NCBI GenBank assembly: GCA_013285465.1
Contig: CP053449.1
Coordinates: 62,001-126,000, forward strand
Origin: Pseudomonadota bacterium
GTDB taxonomy: Bacteria; Pseudomonadota; Alphaproteobacteria; Micavibrionales; CSBR16-224
Direction: 5' to 3'
Length of the DNA: 64,000 bases
Position numbers and translations under genes: made by a program. The notes beneath the pieces are model-generated. The model did no database searches. It worked only from the letters and a program-made list of their open reading frames with translations, and was not told where the DNA came from. Positions 1-10,125 of this stretch are shown here, one piece after another; the stretch's first letter is position 1; each line of letters opens with the position of its first letter.

Positions 1-1
1 G

Positions 2-115
2 GATGCGGACGGCCAGGACGGCGACGGTCAGGACGGCCAAGGTCAGGATGGCCAAGACGGTCAGGACGGACAAGACGGTCAGGATGGTCAAAAAGGCCAG
101 AAGGGCGATCAATCC
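2..115 (+). repeat. In-frame tandem repeat coding Asp-Gly-Gln
   Basis: Units of about nine bases of the type GAC-GGT-CAG recur in tandem, with third-position variation. They encode a run of Asp-Gly-Gln triplets that passes into Gln-Lys-Gly near its end. The repeat begins before the window. It is probably a flexible acidic linker whose copy number can slip. Confidence 0.85.
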
Positions 116-1159
116 GGTGACCCGAGCGAATCCAGCGATCAGGCCGGAACCGGTGACGGTAAATCACTGTCTGAACTGGCAAAGCAGGACTGGACACAGT
201 ATGAGAAACGTGTTGCGGAATTGCGCGGCCCGATCATGCAGACACGGAAGGTCTTTAAGCGCGTACAGGATCTGCAAATGCAGAATAAAAAGAAGAAATC
301 CTCTTCGATGGATATTCTGCCGCAGGATGGCGAAGTTATGGACCGCTTCAACATGGAGGCGCATAAGCATCTGACGCTGAAAAAAGCGATCGGTGATGTG
401 CAGGAAGATGATTTGAAACGCTTCCACCTTGATGATGATTACGAAATCCCGGCCGAGATCGATATTCTGATTATGATTGACGGTTCCGGCTCTATGGGTA
501 TGGGCGGCGGCTCCAGTGCAAGCCCGCTGGAAAGCGCGCTGCAGGCAGGTGCGATTCTGTATGAAGCGGCTGCCGGTAAAGACATGAAGATGAATGTCTA
601 TGTCGGAATGTGGGGCGATTCAAACGCGCCGATCAAGATTAAGCCCGGCGATAACCGCACCAAAATCGGTCAGGTTATGCAGGCAATGCGTAGCGGTTTG
701 CACAGCGGTACCGATCTGGCGCCTGCGATTAAACGTGCGGCGGAAACGATTTCCGAACAGCGCGGCAAAGGCGATACATTGAGCGGCTTTACGCATATTC
801 TGGTTCTGTCCGATGGTGATATCGGCGATCAGGCGGAATCGGTTAAGAATCTACAATCGCTGTTTAAATTCTGTGACAAAGTCACGATGGATACGGCCAT
901 TATTAAGCCGCGCGGCGGTTCGTCCGAAATGGAACGGATGGCCAAGACCTTTAAAGGCAAGAAAAGTAAACCGAATGAAGAAATCGGTACCGTCATCGAA
1001 AATAAAGGTGATGCTGTTCCGATGGCGATTGTCGGCTTGCTGCTGAACAAGATCCGCAAATGCGGCAGCTTTAAAGCCGAGCCGCATCAGAAAAAACGTC
1101 GTGATATGAAGAAAGCGGCGAATGAGATGAAGAAACGCGGCGGCGGACGCAGATGGTAG
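2..1159 (+). CDS. VWA-domain protein, 5' end outside the window
   Basis: The frame is open to the left edge, so the start is missing; 385 residues are visible. The first 40 or so are a low-complexity Asp-Gly-Gln repeat, followed by a Lys-rich segment and a von Willebrand A domain. The MIDAS motif DGSGSM is encoded at 479-496, a later GTDLAP supplies the conserved Thr, and LVLSDGD is the next core strand. The tail is very basic. VWA proteins of this kind (CobT, the MoxR partners) work with a AAA+ ATPase, and one follows 90 bp downstream on the same strand. The pairing is inference from family and context; the substrate is unknown. Confidence 0.85.
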   Translation, partial: DADGQDGDGQDGQGQDGQDGQDGQDGQDGQKGQKGDQSGDPSESSDQAGTGDGKSLSELAKQDWTQYEKRVAELRGPIMQTRKVFKRVQDLQMQNKKKKSSSMDILPQDGEVMDRFNMEAHKHLTLKKAIGDVQEDDLKRFHLDDDYEIPAEIDILIMIDGSGSMGMGGGSSASPLESALQAGAILYEAAAGKDMKMNVYVGMWGDSNAPIKIKPGDNRTKIGQVMQAMRSGLHSGTDLAPAIKRAAETISEQRGKGDTLSGFTHILVLSDGDIGDQAESVKNLQSLFKFCDKVTMDTAIIKPRGGSSEMERMAKTFKGKKSKPNEEIGTVIENKGDAVPMAIVGLLLNKIRKCGSFKAEPHQKKRRDMKKAANEMKKRGGGRRW

Positions 1160-1249
1160 GATAAGGTTTACAGGAACCGTATTTATTTAGGAACAGAAAC
1201 AAAGAGAACACAAAACAAAGCTTAAAAAAAGAAGAAAGAGGTAGGCAAG

Positions 1250-4186
1250 ATGGCAAAGAAAAAAGGTGAATTGAAAGGCAACGGAACAGATAAACTGTTG
1301 CACAAGAAAATCTCCGATCTGACGGACGCGGACGTCGATAAGCTGGAGGTCGCACTCGGCACGAATGCACGCCCTTACCCGATGTGGGGAACGGTTGTCG
1401 TTGACGAGGACGGACATCAGTCTATCGAACAGCGCCTTGGTAAGATTAAAGATGATGAAGAGCCTCTGCGTCTTTACTCCGAGCGCCCTTACGAGGAAGT
1501 CATCGGTATGATGTACCGGGATATGCCTACGCCCAGTATGATGCCGATGCTGAAAGACATCCTCGAGATGATCAAGCCGGAAAGCAAAAGCCGCATCTAC
1601 TTTATGAAAGGTGATCCGGGTGCCGGTAAATCCTTCCTGGGTGGTCTGGTCGGCCGCGCACAATCCACACGCCCTGTCGAAATCTTCGATTGCGGCGGTA
1701 AGAACATGAACGACCTTCTGTTCGAGATGGTTCTGGATTTCGGTGCCGGTGATGCGCTTCCCGAAGCAATTGACAAACGTCTTGCAGCCGGTGCGTTGCA
1801 GCCGCTGTCCTACGGTCTGCTGAAAAGCGGTCTGCCGAGCAAATTCGTCGAGGAAACCGATGAAGGTAAACTGGTCATTGACTGGGAAGGCCTGAAAGAA
1901 TCCGGTACGGATAATGTCGAGAAAGCTTTCCAGGTTCTGACGAAAGTCAGCAAGCTTGAAGGTCTGGACAGTGCCGGCGGAAACGCGCTGGGTATGAACT
2001 CGCAGTTCGGTCTCGCGATTCGCGACTTTGAAGAAGGCAACTTCTCGACTTATGACGAGTACAACAAATCGAAAGAAGGCACGGATAACGCCCTGCAAAC
2101 ATTCCTGCAATTCGCCAATGGCGAAATTGACGAATGTACAGTTGTTAACCCGCTGAAAAACAAAGATCAGACCAGTGGTCCGAGCGAATACACATTCCGC
2201 CGTGAAAACACGAAAACGGGCTGGGGTATCGTGATGACAGGTAACGCGGTTGAAGATGGTACGACAACCCGTTCGCTGAACAAATCGGTCTATTCCCGTC
2301 TGTCTCCGGTGACGATTCCGAAACCGTCCCTGATGGATTGGCAGCACCGTATCTGCCAGATCATGACAGGTCTGCCGGTATCGACGCTTTACCATTCCTT
2401 TAAGGACAAAGCGGATAAAGATCCCGAGCAATTCACGGAAATGCTGCTGTACTGGCGTACTGCCGGTCTGACGGAAGAGCAGAAAGCCAATGTTCCGCAA
2501 ATCCACACATCGCTTCTGAAAAACTGGAAGAATGTTGTGGAAGCCTCCGAGAAACTCGCCAAGTTCTACAAAGGCTGGGCCGAGCTGACGGATCCGGACA
2601 AAGCGCTGATCAAAGACGGAAACCTTGTTGAAGAGGTGGATGAGGAATACCAGAAAGAAGTCAGTATCGACTTCCGTAAGGTCATCCAGCATCTGCAATA
2701 TGCGATGCCGCTGCGTGCGCGCATGACGAAAAGCGAAAGCAACGAGGATGTTGATTTTGATCCGAAATCATGGGCGGAAAAACCTGCAAAACGCGTTAAG
2801 CGTACGCAGGAAAGCGTCGAGCGTAACTATGGTACGCGCCTGACCGATCTGCTTGCGGATAAAATCTATGAAACCTCCGGTGCTGCCGGTAAACCGGTTC
2901 TGTACAAGCATCTGAAAGAGCTGATGAAACAGTGCGGCCTGAAAGACCTGCACCTGCAGGAAGGCGCACATAGTAACGTCAAATCTGTCGAGGCATCGCT
3001 GAACATCAATCTGTTTGCGACGACCGATCCGAAAGAGCAGATGAAACTGGCGCAGAAAATGTTTGCCGATTATGTCCGTGAAAGCAATACGGATGTGAAA
3101 ACGCAGGATGACAACGCCATTGTAACTGTTGCGCAGATCAAGGAAACGCTGGATCGTGTGAAAACACAGCTCAGCAGTGATGATGCGACTTTCGTTATCC
3201 CGAATACGGATGTCGAAACGCTGTCTTCGCAGCCCTTTATCACGGCGGAAAAAGTCGATGTTGCCAATGAAGCAAACCGCGACTTTGAGCCGGTAACGGA
3301 AGAACTGGTTGACCATGATGCTCTGATGATGACGCTGGCCTTCCCGAAAGCGAGCGAGCAGAATCTGAAAGCCGTCTGGGACAAGGAAAACCACCTTGCG
3401 CTGCTGCTGATGAAGAGCAACTACGCGCAAAAGCGGATTGACCTTGAAAGCGATATCGAAGAGCTGAAAGCACAGCAACCTTCGGCTTCCGCTGATAGTG
3501 ACGATGATGCAAGCGGCTTCTTTGCCGGTGGCGATGATGATCTGGTCGGAAAACAGAAAGAGCTTCTGGACCTTCTGAAGAAGGAACAGGCGCAGCTGAA
3601 AGATTTCGGTCAGGACACAGACGAAGTCGACACATATATCACAACGCTGAAGAAAGACATCACCGCAGCAGGCGGCACAGTTGAAGACGATACCCGTACG
3701 GTAACGCCCTTCACCGGTGACATGATCCTGGATGATGATGTTAAAATCGCTGAGAACAACTCGGATACCGGTATCGGCGCGACGACAGTCGTGGTGAAAG
3801 CCACAAACGAGAATGGCGAAGCAGAACGCGTTCCGGTTCATATTATCGTCAACAACAACAGCCAGAAAACACTGGTTGTCGGTGGCGAGACATCGGAACG
3901 TCTGTCGACCCTGTTCCGCGAAGTCGGCGTGAAACATGTGAACCGTAATGACAAGAACGCGGCGTCTCAACTGCGCGAAGCACTGGATGACATCCTGCGC
4001 GGCGCATCCGAGGAAACGCGTAACAATGTCCGCTCGGCTCTCTTGTTCCGTAACGATCCTGTTGATGTTCCGGAAAGCAAGATTATCGAGCATAATGAGA
4101 AGGCAAGCATGGAAGATATTCTTCTGTCTTACGAGCCTTACCTCGGTAAATATCTTGTTGCGAAACAAGCCCCGCGCAATATCTGA
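1250..4186 (+). CDS. MoxR-like AAA+ ATPase, 978 residues
   Basis: The AAA+ core occupies roughly residues 75-360. Walker A is GDPGAGKS at 121-128, the Walker B region is DEYNK at 268-272 (the AAA_5/MoxR style DE-x-N-K), and sensor 1 is Asn331 in VMTGN, followed by a SRLS segment that may hold an Arg finger. The remaining 600 residues are far longer than a usual MoxR protein (about 330) and match no domain I know; residues about 735-790 look like an acidic coiled coil. It lies 90 bp after the VWA gene, so a MoxR/VWA chaperone-like pair is likely. The start ATG follows GAGGTAGGCAAG. Confidence 0.8.
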   Translation: MAKKKGELKGNGTDKLLHKKISDLTDADVDKLEVALGTNARPYPMWGTVVVDEDGHQSIEQRLGKIKDDEEPLRLYSERPYEEVIGMMYRDMPTPSMMPMLKDILEMIKPESKSRIYFMKGDPGAGKSFLGGLVGRAQSTRPVEIFDCGGKNMNDLLFEMVLDFGAGDALPEAIDKRLAAGALQPLSYGLLKSGLPSKFVEETDEGKLVIDWEGLKESGTDNVEKAFQVLTKVSKLEGLDSAGGNALGMNSQFGLAIRDFEEGNFSTYDEYNKSKEGTDNALQTFLQFANGEIDECTVVNPLKNKDQTSGPSEYTFRRENTKTGWGIVMTGNAVEDGTTTRSLNKSVYSRLSPVTIPKPSLMDWQHRICQIMTGLPVSTLYHSFKDKADKDPEQFTEMLLYWRTAGLTEEQKANVPQIHTSLLKNWKNVVEASEKLAKFYKGWAELTDPDKALIKDGNLVEEVDEEYQKEVSIDFRKVIQHLQYAMPLRARMTKSESNEDVDFDPKSWAEKPAKRVKRTQESVERNYGTRLTDLLADKIYETSGAAGKPVLYKHLKELMKQCGLKDLHLQEGAHSNVKSVEASLNINLFATTDPKEQMKLAQKMFADYVRESNTDVKTQDDNAIVTVAQIKETLDRVKTQLSSDDATFVIPNTDVETLSSQPFITAEKVDVANEANRDFEPVTEELVDHDALMMTLAFPKASEQNLKAVWDKENHLALLLMKSNYAQKRIDLESDIEELKAQQPSASADSDDDASGFFAGGDDDLVGKQKELLDLLKKEQAQLKDFGQDTDEVDTYITTLKKDITAAGGTVEDDTRTVTPFTGDMILDDDVKIAENNSDTGIGATTVVVKATNENGEAERVPVHIIVNNNSQKTLVVGGETSERLSTLFREVGVKHVNRNDKNAASQLREALDDILRGASEETRNNVRSALLFRNDPVDVPESKIIEHNEKASMEDILLSYEPYLGKYLVAKQAPRNI

Positions 4187-4223
4187 TTGATAAGGCGCTA
4201 GGCCCGGCACTGAAACGGACACC

Positions 4224-4682
4224 ATGATCAAGGACGCGCTTGTGACGGAAAAGAAAGACAAGTCCGAAAAAAACAGTGACCCGAAAGAAAGATATGAGGG
4301 GGGAGGCTCCGCAGGCGGAGGCTCCCCTTCTTCATCTCGGGACAAGGCTGCTGCGACGGAGCGTAATATCGATATCGTGGCACGGCAGGCTGCACGGCTG
4401 CGGGCGATGGAAGCAGGTCCGATGGAAATATTGCCGCATGGATCACGGCTTTATTTTGTTGATAAAGGATGGGAAACCTCTATCATAGAAGGCGATCCGA
4501 ACGTCAGAACTGCTGCGACTCTGCGCACATTTGAAGAGGCGTTCAAAGATCCGGAGGTGGGAACGATTTTTGTTCCAGAGGGTGCGCTTGTAACATTGGC
4601 CGGGGTAACGCGAATTTGTCGCCGTTACGCCGTGAGCAAAGTGATTTATAAAGAAGAAGAAGGGAAACAAAGCGATGCCTGA
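4224..4682 (+). CDS. Hypothetical protein, 152 residues
   Basis: I do not recognise this protein. The first 45 residues are charged and disordered with a Gly/Ser-rich stretch. The rest (about 50-145) looks like a small folded domain ending in a basic strand (CRRYAVSKVIYKEEE). There is no signal peptide or membrane segment. It sits 37 bp after the AAA+ gene, and its last 8 bases overlap the next gene, so it belongs to the same operon and may be an adaptor of the ATPase. That role is inference from position. Confidence 0.65.
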   Translation: MIKDALVTEKKDKSEKNSDPKERYEGGGSAGGGSPSSSRDKAAATERNIDIVARQAARLRAMEAGPMEILPHGSRLYFVDKGWETSIIEGDPNVRTAATLRTFEEAFKDPEVGTIFVPEGALVTLAGVTRICRRYAVSKVIYKEEEGKQSDA

Positions 4683-6183
4683 TAACAAAAAAAATGACAG
4701 TTCTTTAAAACAGGCTTTCATTGCGACACTGTGCAAACACCCCAAAGCTTCTGATTACCAACAGGATGCCTTCCGCAGCGCCGATATTATGGGGCTTTAC
4801 AAAAAGCTGAAAGAGGCCGGCGAAACGCTGTCGAAAGAAGATTTTCTGGGTGCGGATAAAAGCGGGGAATATTTCCTTGGCTCTTCGCGCGCATGGGATA
4901 ATTTCCATCATATTGTTGAAATTCTGCGTGATAACGGTGAAGAATTTACCGCCGATGATTTCCTGACGGTGAAAGAAGGCTCTTATTACCAGCGTCCGCT
5001 GATTGAAAGCGTTGTCAGCCATGACAAAGTGGACAAATTGTTCAGCGCCGATGTCTGGAAAGGCCGTTTCGAAGAAATGGAAAATCTGTGGTATTACATT
5101 CCGCCGAATAAGCGCGGTCAACTGGCGCAGGATGAAGACGGACGTGTGCCGCTGAAACTGAAACGCGAAGTGCTGGAACTGGATGAACAGACGCCGTTGC
5201 GCGAGGAATCGTTGAAAAAAATCGGTGTTGATTATAAAGCCATCCCGGATATGTTCTCCAAACGCGGAACATTTGATGCGTTTTTGCAGACATTGTATGA
5301 AAACAACACGCCGCTGAAAAAGGAAGATCTGCTCTTCGTCAATAAAGACGGCGACACCATGTTCCACAATGCCGCGGCCTGGCAGTATTACGATAAAATT
5401 GTCGACAGTCTGCAGCAGACGGGACAAAGTTTTGGTATTGAAGAGCTGACCTTTAAACGCGGCCGGAAGCCGTCTATTCTGGAACGCGCCGCACAGCATA
5501 AAATGCTGCATAAAGTCTTCGAGCCGCGCTTCTGGATCGGACAAGTCGACGAAATGGTCGGGTTGTGGGATAATCTGCCGCCGGCACAAAAAGTCCTGAG
5601 CGGCCGCAACAGTTTCGATACGGTCGTTGCCGATGTGGAAAATATGACATACCGTTCGCATGTCTCTTTGAATGAAGATATGACGGCATCCTCGCTGACG
5701 ACGCCGATTGTCGCCAATGACGGCAAGCAGAGCAAAGTTCTTCCGATCGGTCTGCGTGACACATGGGACAATATGGACATCGTGCGCGAGAAATTGCAGT
5801 CCAAAAAGGATGATCTGAAAGTAGCACATCTGCGCCAGACAAGCGGTGCATTGGAAAACACGGTCTTAATGGTGGCGGCGGAAGCCGGACAGTTCGATAA
5901 GGTTCTCGATATTGTCCGCAGCGATTCCGATACGCTGCAAGTACAGGACTTCCTGAAGCCGAATAAAAACGGTGTCTCGCTGCTGGATGTTTTGATTGAA
6001 AAACGCCAGTTGAAGAAAGCCTTTGCACCGGAAATCTGGGCAGGCCGTCTGCGTGAGATGCATATCCTGTGGAACAATGTTCAAAACCGTGACCGCGGGC
6101 AGGTTGATTTCCAAAAGGTGGTCAGCCAGGTGAACCAGATGACGGTGCGCCAGAAGCTGCGCCGTCCGGGCCGCAAAATGTAA
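4675..6183 (+). CDS. Repeat protein of unknown function, 502 residues
   Basis: The protein contains three diverged copies of a unit of about 90 residues, at roughly 60-155, 180-300 and 400-490, with a half copy at the N-terminus. Each copy has a helical part ending in a Val-Asp/Leu-rich turn and 'DFL', then a Leu-rich helix, then the hallmark W-x-G-(R/Q)-h-x-E-M-x-x-L-W (for example VWKGRFEEMENLW and IWAGRLREMHILW). The spacing is reminiscent of ankyrin-type solenoids but the signature is different. It is the last gene of the cluster, overlaps the preceding gene, and ends 20 bp before a terminator. Function unknown. Confidence 0.7.
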   Translation: MPDNKKNDSSLKQAFIATLCKHPKASDYQQDAFRSADIMGLYKKLKEAGETLSKEDFLGADKSGEYFLGSSRAWDNFHHIVEILRDNGEEFTADDFLTVKEGSYYQRPLIESVVSHDKVDKLFSADVWKGRFEEMENLWYYIPPNKRGQLAQDEDGRVPLKLKREVLELDEQTPLREESLKKIGVDYKAIPDMFSKRGTFDAFLQTLYENNTPLKKEDLLFVNKDGDTMFHNAAAWQYYDKIVDSLQQTGQSFGIEELTFKRGRKPSILERAAQHKMLHKVFEPRFWIGQVDEMVGLWDNLPPAQKVLSGRNSFDTVVADVENMTYRSHVSLNEDMTASSLTTPIVANDGKQSKVLPIGLRDTWDNMDIVREKLQSKKDDLKVAHLRQTSGALENTVLMVAAEAGQFDKVLDIVRSDSDTLQVQDFLKPNKNGVSLLDVLIEKRQLKKAFAPEIWAGRLREMHILWNNVQNRDRGQVDFQKVVSQVNQMTVRQKLRRPGRKM

Positions 6184-6203: not shown

Positions 6204-6237
6204 AAAAACGGCGCAGCATTTGTTGCGCCGTTTTTCT
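6204..6237 (+). terminator. Rho-independent terminator of the VWA/AAA+ cluster
   Basis: A perfect 11-bp stem, AAAACGGCGCA pairing with TGCGCCGTTTT, closes a loop of about 8 bases and runs into TTTTTCTTTT. It lies 20 bp after the stop of the 502-residue repeat protein. Confidence 0.9.
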
Positions 6238-8691: not shown

Positions 8692-10125
8692 TCAGCGCTT
8701 CGGAGCCTTGCCTTTTTTCTGCTGCGGAGACGGCTTGTTCTCTGCGGTATCTCCGGCAGGATTGTCATTGGCAGGTTTATCTTTTTTCTTCCACAATGTC
8801 CATGGCATAAAGACCGCTTTCAGCCCGTTTTTGAATTTGCTGGTCGGTTTTTCCTGATAGCGTTTTCTTTCACGCAAGACGCCGACAACCCGGTCCAGCT
8901 GGTTTAAATGGTCTTCCTCAAGGTTCTTGGCCAGTTCCTGAATATCCCGGTCTTCCGCGGGGATATCTGTGACATCGACATCGCTGGAATATTTCACCAC
9001 TTTGGTATAGGCGATATTCAGCTCTTTCGTGTTTTTGGTATCGGCCAGGATATCGGTCAGCTCCGTCAATGCGGCGCGGCTTTGCGTATAGGCCTGATCG
9101 ACATAGACTTTGCTTTTCAGAATTTCGCAAAGCCTGTCGAGATCATCACCGTAATCCTCAACCAGACGCTCGGAATAATCGAGCAGGGCGTTCAGGTTCT
9201 TCTCCGAAGCGTCATCCAGACGAATCGACGGGTTGATATCAGGCGCATATTTGTCAATCGACTGGTCAAAACTGAACAAGCGGTCACCGATTTCGGATTT
9301 TAAATCATCCAATACGGCAGTGCCGTTCATATGAATCATCAATCCGACGGTTTCTTTCAGCAGTGTCATGGGTGACACTTTATTAAATTCATCCGGAGAC
9401 GCGCTGAGTTTCTGAAAGGCCGTGCCGATATGCACAACAACAATTTCCGCATCCGGCGGTGCCGCCTGTTTTGCCTTGGTATAGGCGTAACGCGGGGCGG
9501 AGGCGCTGAAGATATTACCGTCTAAAAAGGTATAACGCTCACGCACATCCGGCGTATTGGGATTGGGGGCGGTATAGGTATATTTTGCCTGAAACAGCGA
9601 CGGTGCCGTGCAGCTTGCGCGCACTGCTTCCCACAAATCCATATTGCGCCAGCCGTCCTTATCGGAGAGTTTTTTGATGTTTTGAATCCAGGCCGGGCGA
9701 TAGGCTTTCATATCCGTTGCCGTGACAATCAGATCGGTCAGGCTTTCGCCCATTTTTGTTTCGCCGTAAAGGGTTTTCAGAATTTTCTCAAAATTCTCGA
9801 CATCATAATAACCGTCCGCACCGGGAACGAAATGTTTGATATTACGGAATTTGATATTCGGAAAAATATTCGGCGCTTCGCGTTTGAAGGTCTGGAGAAC
9901 TTCACTGGCGGTATAGCGCGGTTTTTTCGGGTCATCTGCGGACGGAACCGTCAGGCTGGCACCGACAAGTGCGCCTGCCGAGGTCACGGCAATCATATCG
10001 AAGAGCTCGGATGTATGTTTACCCGTCTTTTTTTCGATTTCTTCCAACATTCTTGCGGGAATTAACCCGCGTACACCACCCCCGTCGATCACCAAAACCG
10101 TGTAAACGCGTTTTTTCGTGCTCAT
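8692..10125 (-). CDS. Patatin-like phospholipase-family protein
   Basis: The N-terminus has the patatin oxyanion loop DGGGVRG (about residues 14-20) and the overall order of a patatin domain (about 8-330). The nucleophile elbow, normally G-x-S-x-G, reads V-T-S-A-G here, with Val in place of the first Gly. The Asp of the dyad sits in DGN instead of DGG or DGA. Ser and Asp are both present, so activity is possible but not assured. The C-terminal 150 residues are helical and end in a Lys/Pro-rich tail. The family hydrolyses acyl chains from lipids; the substrate here is unknown. It lies 51 bp upstream of lpdA on the same strand. Confidence 0.75.
   Translation of the reverse strand: MSTKKRVYTVLVIDGGGVRGLIPARMLEEIEKKTGKHTSELFDMIAVTSAGALVGASLTVPSADDPKKPRYTASEVLQTFKREAPNIFPNIKFRNIKHFVPGADGYYDVENFEKILKTLYGETKMGESLTDLIVTATDMKAYRPAWIQNIKKLSDKDGWRNMDLWEAVRASCTAPSLFQAKYTYTAPNPNTPDVRERYTFLDGNIFSASAPRYAYTKAKQAAPPDAEIVVVHIGTAFQKLSASPDEFNKVSPMTLLKETVGLMIHMNGTAVLDDLKSEIGDRLFSFDQSIDKYAPDINPSIRLDDASEKNLNALLDYSERLVEDYGDDLDRLCEILKSKVYVDQAYTQSRAALTELTDILADTKNTKELNIAYTKVVKYSSDVDVTDIPAEDRDIQELAKNLEEDHLNQLDRVVGVLRERKRYQEKPTSKFKNGLKAVFMPWTLWKKKDKPANDNPAGDTAENKPSPQQKKGKAPKR

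Follow-up and report, generated by a model that had tools for sequence, protein, structure and literature searches.

A chromosomal AAA+/VWA cassette of Alphaproteobacteria with a predicted zincin-like domain and putative repeat-protein partners

AAA+/VWA machines are widespread, and how they choose their targets is poorly known. Several described systems are close to the locus studied here. NorD, the partner of NorQ, consists of an N-terminal domain, a disordered linker and a C-terminal VWA domain (PMC9976466, PMC13036017). In jumbo phages, a MoxR-vWA pair in which the vWA protein carries an N-terminal metallopeptidase has been proposed (PMC7824862). The vWA-MoxR ternary systems comprise VMAP, iSTAND and effector modules (PMC7159879). 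Finally, Wss1/Cdc48/Doa1 associates a minigluzincin-type metalloprotease with an AAA+ unfoldase and an adaptor (PMC4559962). We looked at a four-gene cassette that the original prediction, made from the letters of the DNA, had presented as a possible new MoxR-type system. We found no paper describing this cassette in the open-access literature. We regard it as a variant of AAA+/VWA systems, and our confidence in the mechanism proposed below is moderate.

Operon layout and distribution

The window, that is, the whole stretch of DNA analysed, is 64,000 nt of contig CP053449.1, from a genome of 2.67 Mb in a single contig. The operon lies at its beginning, in the order VWA gene, AAA+ gene, g3, g4 and terminator. 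The window begins inside the VWA frame, and the 10 kb preceding the window (L002) supplied the gene start, 1.9 kb upstream at window position -1897 (L002:8103). The features are as follows.

1..1159, + strand: VWA gene, 3' part (frame 2-1159 in the original prediction); the full gene encodes 1018 aa, with a putative zincin-like N domain (aa 1-440), a DGQ linker (aa 441-685), the VWA domain and a basic tail
2..157, + strand: end of the Q/G/D-rich disordered linker (aa 441-685, mostly upstream of the window), from composition
464..817, + strand: VWA domain with intact MIDAS (DGSGSM, T, D), from PF13519 (E=2.2e-7) and residue conservation
1250..4186, + strand: AAA+ ATPase, 978 aa, from the ORF, conservation, predicted structure and fold matches
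1610..1633, + strand: Walker A GDPGAGKS (aa 121-128); G121, G126 and K127 invariant in 30 sequences
2054..2059, + strand: Walker B D269-E270, invariant in 30 sequences
2243..2245, + strand: sensor 1 N332, invariant in 30 sequences and collinear with TAN of CobS
2297..2299, + strand: candidate arginine finger R350, invariant in 30 sequences
3728..4057, + strand: AAA+ C-terminal alpha/beta domain (aa 827-936), also present as separate small proteins in relatives
4224..4682, + strand: g3, small protein of 152 aa, 3' of the AAA+ gene in 42/47 cassettes
4675..6183, + strand: g4, 502 aa, three ankyrin-like repeats of about 160 aa and a basic C-terminus
5797..6180, + strand: g4 C-terminal module (aa 375-502), common to ankyrin and LRR proteins elsewhere in the genomes
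6204..6235, + strand (L002 16204-16235): strong intrinsic terminator with a 14-bp stem, closing the operon

The four frames are thus found where the original prediction had placed them, and the single operon with a shared terminator that it had proposed is supported. g3 and g4 overlap by 8 bp, and the gaps are of about 90 bp between the VWA and AAA+ genes and about 37 bp between the AAA+ gene and g3. In many relatives, the VWA and AAA+ genes overlap by 4 bp, which fits translational coupling. On the minus strand, some 2.5 kb past the end of the operon, lies a gene for a patatin-like protein (window 8692-10125), recognised by eye from GGGVRG and a serine motif.

We compared the locus with a panel of about 50 loci from Micavibrio-like and other alphaproteobacteria, counting a gene only where the flanking sequence sufficed; some of these loci are near-identical, and the counts are of loci rather than of independent lineages. 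A VWA gene lies upstream of the AAA+ gene in 45 of 46 loci, g3 lies downstream in 42 of 47, and a gene with the g4 module lies downstream in 31 of 45. The downstream genes, grouped with the pair in the original prediction, are therefore conserved next to it in relatives. Judging by this conservation, the four frames are genes and not chance ORFs, since orthologues of all four keep their order in many genomes.

AAA+ homologues were detected in 24 of 55 relatives, in 33 of 142 genomes of the order and in 4 of 289 genomes of the class, while in a sample of 398 genomes of the phylum the only one was that of the source genome itself. A survey of the genomes of 84,980 species returned 39 loci, nearly all in records with alphaproteobacterial titles, a few titled only 'Proteobacteria' and several named Micavibrio. 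Some genomes contain several paralogous cassettes. A viral, phage or plasmid origin was rejected, as the viral contigs and the phage and plasmid collections searched gave no matches to the cassette.

The AAA+ and VWA proteins

In all 30 AAA+ sequences compared, Walker A, Walker B (DE), sensor 1 N332 and R350 are conserved without exception. Membership of the Pfam MoxR family (AAA_3, PF07726) was rejected: PF07726 matches five other places in the genome and not this gene, its best match (195.8 bits, at C1:320 kb) being a canonical MoxR. Pfam gave no clear family for the AAA+ protein of the window, and two of its relatives match AAA_5, with a best value of 3.3e-4; beyond these weak matches, sequence profiles tie it to no known AAA+ family. 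Searches with PDB sequence profiles for the AAA+ protein, the VWA protein and g3 returned nothing useful. The CobS model TIGR01650 matched the source genome only at C1:1753 kb, where a CobT-like gene lies alongside, and did not match the AAA+ protein of the window. Profile alignment with CobS is weak and collinear from Walker B to the arginine.

The predicted structure of the AAA+ protein (pLDDT 80, pTM 0.62) was compared with known folds by Foldseek. It matched dynein motors (E=1.3e-4), NorQ in complex with the NorD VWA domain and CbbQ2 (both with probability 1.00), and also McrB. Because of these matches, the predicted fold is placed in the dynein/NorQ/CbbQ/McrB group (helix-2-insert/dynein-related), which includes MoxR, and by family model the protein is not a MoxR. 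Of the MoxR-type label, the pairing of an AAA+ with a VWA protein and extra partners stands, and the membership of the Pfam family does not.

In the predicted structure, residues 827-936 form a separate alpha/beta domain. Small proteins that join this C-terminal domain to a short or coiled N-terminal stretch are encoded in some genomes of one family (f3; L132-L141), and these are possible competitors or regulators of the machine. The source genome also encodes a canonical MoxR (C1:320253-320654), a McrB-like AAA+ protein (C1:1020675-1021082) and a CobS/CobT pair (C1:1753309-1754265).

The VWA protein has an N-terminal domain, a disordered DGQ linker and a C-terminal VWA domain. The DGQ repeat and basic tail noticed at the outset are both there: DGQ occurs in 22 copies, mostly within the linker, which over its 245 aa is 72% Q/G/D with a net charge of -51, and the tail is of 45 residues with a net charge of +12. 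MIDAS residues D793, S795, S797 and D904 are invariant and T870 is nearly so.

To look at the N domain, we used a model folded from the relative L087 (pLDDT 89.8, pTM 0.87). All of its high-probability PDB matches are archaeal minigluzincins (probability up to 0.93; E 0.5 or worse). In the viral library, a phage CobT-like protein ranks first (probability 1.00), followed by SprT-like proteins and phage metalloproteases. The best Foldseek E-values behind this assignment, 0.05 in the viral library and 0.5 in the PDB, are not significant, and the N domain is putatively zincin-like by its modelled fold. Other known families were tried and rejected. For PrkA/YeaG with YhbH, the VWA piece only weakly matches TIGR02877 (E=5e-4, far below the cut-off); for the DUF2201_N metallopeptidase-VWA family, a PF13203 search of the source genome gave no match; and for CobT, tried with the VWA part and with the N domain, only a generic MIDAS strand aligns.

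The HExxH motif is intact as HEIGH, HEVGH or HEVAH in deep, scattered branches. Elsewhere it is replaced by REIGH, REIGR, REIGY and others, the copy in the window being REIGY, and two glutamates downstream of this position show full or almost full conservation. Mapped on the AAA+ tree, the motif needs a minimum of three to four changes of state. Since HExxH is unlikely to arise repeatedly, several losses are the simpler reading of these sequences. With REIGY, the N domain encoded in the window is predicted to be inactive as a protease. The putative zincin-like N domain, its apparently decayed active site here and the shared g4 module described below are points that go beyond the original prediction.

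g3, g4 and the shared C-terminal module

For g3, we rejected the idea that it is a copy of the AAA+ C-terminal domain, as the two have no profile similarity. Three repeats, each about 160 aa long, make up g4 (profile probability above 99%). Its ankyrin match is below the cut-off (Ank_3, E=0.11), and Ank_3 is matched by 6 of 15 g4 proteins, with a best value of 0.0046. The last repeat and the basic tail of g4 form a module that many other proteins carry at their C-terminal end or close to it, several of them encoded in tandem arrays. Relatives bearing the module carry clear ankyrin repeats (Ank_2 down to 1e-49), and in divergent or deeper cassettes the position of g4 is occupied by an LRR protein bearing this module (L147:3311-4525, L148:9446-11254, L043:10704-11936). 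About ten N-terminal sequences, read by eye, showed no signal peptide.

Within the order, the module is present in 29 of 33 genomes with the cassette and in none of the 109 without it. In the class, it is found in 3 of 4 cassette genomes against 2 of 285 others (Fisher p=1e-5), and both comparisons overstate the strength of the association, as they ignore shared ancestry and count g4 itself as a module. The two cassette-free genomes of the class match the module model over its ankyrin-like part. Other cases are more telling than these counts. Two families outside the order (f107 and f9) have the cassette together with module-like proteins encoded elsewhere, the matches in f9 being weak, and in one genus (g11) the genomes whose main cassette is without g4 have no module or only one. 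Clade II cassettes have an intact HExxH and no g4, so that the possible protease is not always accompanied by g4.

Two loci of the source genome were also seen. At L153:4257-5549 (C1:939.3-940.5 kb), a 430-aa ankyrin protein with a g4-type module adjoins genes that look by eye like those of a Tad/Flp pilus. At L152:4611-5561 (C1:206.6-207.6 kb), a shortened g4-like gene of 316 aa covers g4 positions 110-301 and has an unrelated C-terminus; it is also present in two genus mates.

A proposed machine, its alternatives and known systems

Starting from the observed gene order, domain content, motif conservation and loss, and shared module, we infer complex formation, docking, target delivery and proteolysis as the possible steps of one machine. 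The operon would encode an ATP-driven protein-remodelling machine for which repeat proteins serve as exchangeable adaptors; it would cleave its targets in some lineages and probably not in this one, a reading whose chances we regard as evenly balanced. The AAA+ protein would be the motor. By analogy with NorQD, the VWA protein would dock on the AAA+ ring via its C-terminal VWA domain, with the zincin-like N domain held on the long disordered tether, and the energy of ATP hydrolysis would be used to pull on either the linker or the N domain. g3 would be a small core subunit, and g4 and its relatives would bind or bring targets through their repeats and dock via the common C-terminal module. Ankyrin and LRR proteins from other loci carry this module too, so target receptors would be interchangeable on the machine. 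Where HExxH is intact, the N domain may cleave the target, by analogy with Wss1 beside Cdc48. In the lineage of the window, where the putative zincin site appears to have decayed to REIGY, the machine would most likely only unfold, hold or release its targets, and the N domain may act as a binding or regulatory domain.

A more specific form of this proposal is tentative, and we lean somewhat against it. In this form, a fixed core (the AAA+ protein, the VWA-tethered zincin and g3) would be programmed by ankyrin or LRR receptors docking via one C-terminal module, and a protease would have turned into a pseudoenzyme several times. Such a receptor-programmed core would follow a logic comparable to that of the receptor subunits of ubiquitin ligases.

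Alternatively, the cassette could encode a dedicated chaperone for cofactor insertion or maturation, like NorQ/NorD or CobS/CobT, serving one target complex with the repeat proteins as assembly scaffolds instead of exchangeable receptors. The two-protein core and its layout are as in NorQD, the motifs from Walker B to the arginine are collinear with those of CobS, and the loss of HExxH suits a non-proteolytic role. However, CobS and CobT are encoded separately in this genome, we recognised no gene for a metalloenzyme next to the cassette in the window, and both cassette duplication and arrays of module proteins are ill-suited to a single target; we consider this chaperone unlikely.

It seems distinctly unlikely that the cassette is a conflict system of the vWA-MoxR ternary type, in which repeat proteins would sense invaders or prey and the AAA+/VWA core would restructure an effector. 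Such ternary systems are already described (PMC7159879), the arrays of repeat proteins resemble a diversified recognition set, and the distribution is patchy with paralogues. On the other hand, Pfam and PADLOC scans of the cassette recognised no VMAP-type third component, no iSTAND and no effector domain, whether fused to the VWA protein or encoded beside it, and gave no PADLOC family match. The absence of the cassette from the viral contigs, phage and plasmid collections searched also speaks against a conflict system.

The ankyrin and LRR proteins could also be secreted effectors, with the module as an export signal and the AAA+/VWA pair preparing export. Type IV substrates carry C-terminal export signals, which the basic C-terminal tails resemble, and ankyrin proteins are common effectors. 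We judge this very unlikely, and type IV secretion was rejected for the ankyrin proteins since VirB4 does not track with the cassette: only 5 of the 33 cassette genomes have it, and it is missing from all of family f1, the source genome included. Lastly, it is highly improbable that the ankyrin proteins are inhibitors shielding the cell from its own hydrolases and removed or loaded by the AAA+/VWA pair. In the stretches read, none of the module genes has a hydrolase gene as a visible partner. In favour, there is a precedent in Bd3460, a Bdellovibrio ankyrin protein that protects the cell from its own hydrolases (PMC4686830), and Micavibrio, a genus of predators, gives its name to several of the related records.

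With the adaptor-fed remodelling machine as the preferred reading, the cassette ties one AAA+/VWA machine to a countable set of candidate receptors with a common module. In organisms close to bacterial predators, it allows the choice of targets by exchangeable adaptors to be tested, and the probable repeated loss of HExxH provides natural pairs of likely active and inactive copies.

Compared with known systems, the cassette shares with NorQ/NorD and CbbQ/CbbO, in which a MoxR AAA+ protein has a VWA partner, an AAA+ fold predicted to be of the same group, and with NorD a variable N-terminal domain followed by a disordered linker and a C-terminal VWA domain. Unlike their ATPases of about 270 aa, the one found here has 978 aa with extra domains, and the cassette adds a putative zincin-like N domain, a conserved g3 and repeat-protein partners. 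CobS/CobT is alike in its AAA+ protein with a VWA partner and in the collinear DEY...TAN/TGN...R motifs, whereas the profile similarity is weak and the genome has a separate CobS and CobT. Like the ternary systems, the cassette combines AAA+ and vWA proteins with a third component and variable recognition or effector modules, but here the variable part consists of separate proteins with a common C-terminal module. Wss1/Cdc48/Doa1 is eukaryotic, has no VWA protein and uses another AAA+ family, and is a functional analogy only. In the jumbo-phage pair, an AAA+ protein also stands beside a vWA protein with an N-terminal metallopeptidase, an architecture matched by the relatives with intact HExxH, and a phage CobT-like protein gives the closest fold to the N domain in the viral library; a tblastn search of 50,697 phage records detected no sequence similarity. 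In contrast to that pair, the cassette is chromosomal, has the additional g3 and g4 and has lost HExxH in many copies. A metallopeptidase-vWA fusion is therefore not new, as it was already proposed for jumbo phages; what is new is a chromosomal cassette with g3, repeat proteins sharing a module and an active site that appears to have decayed repeatedly.
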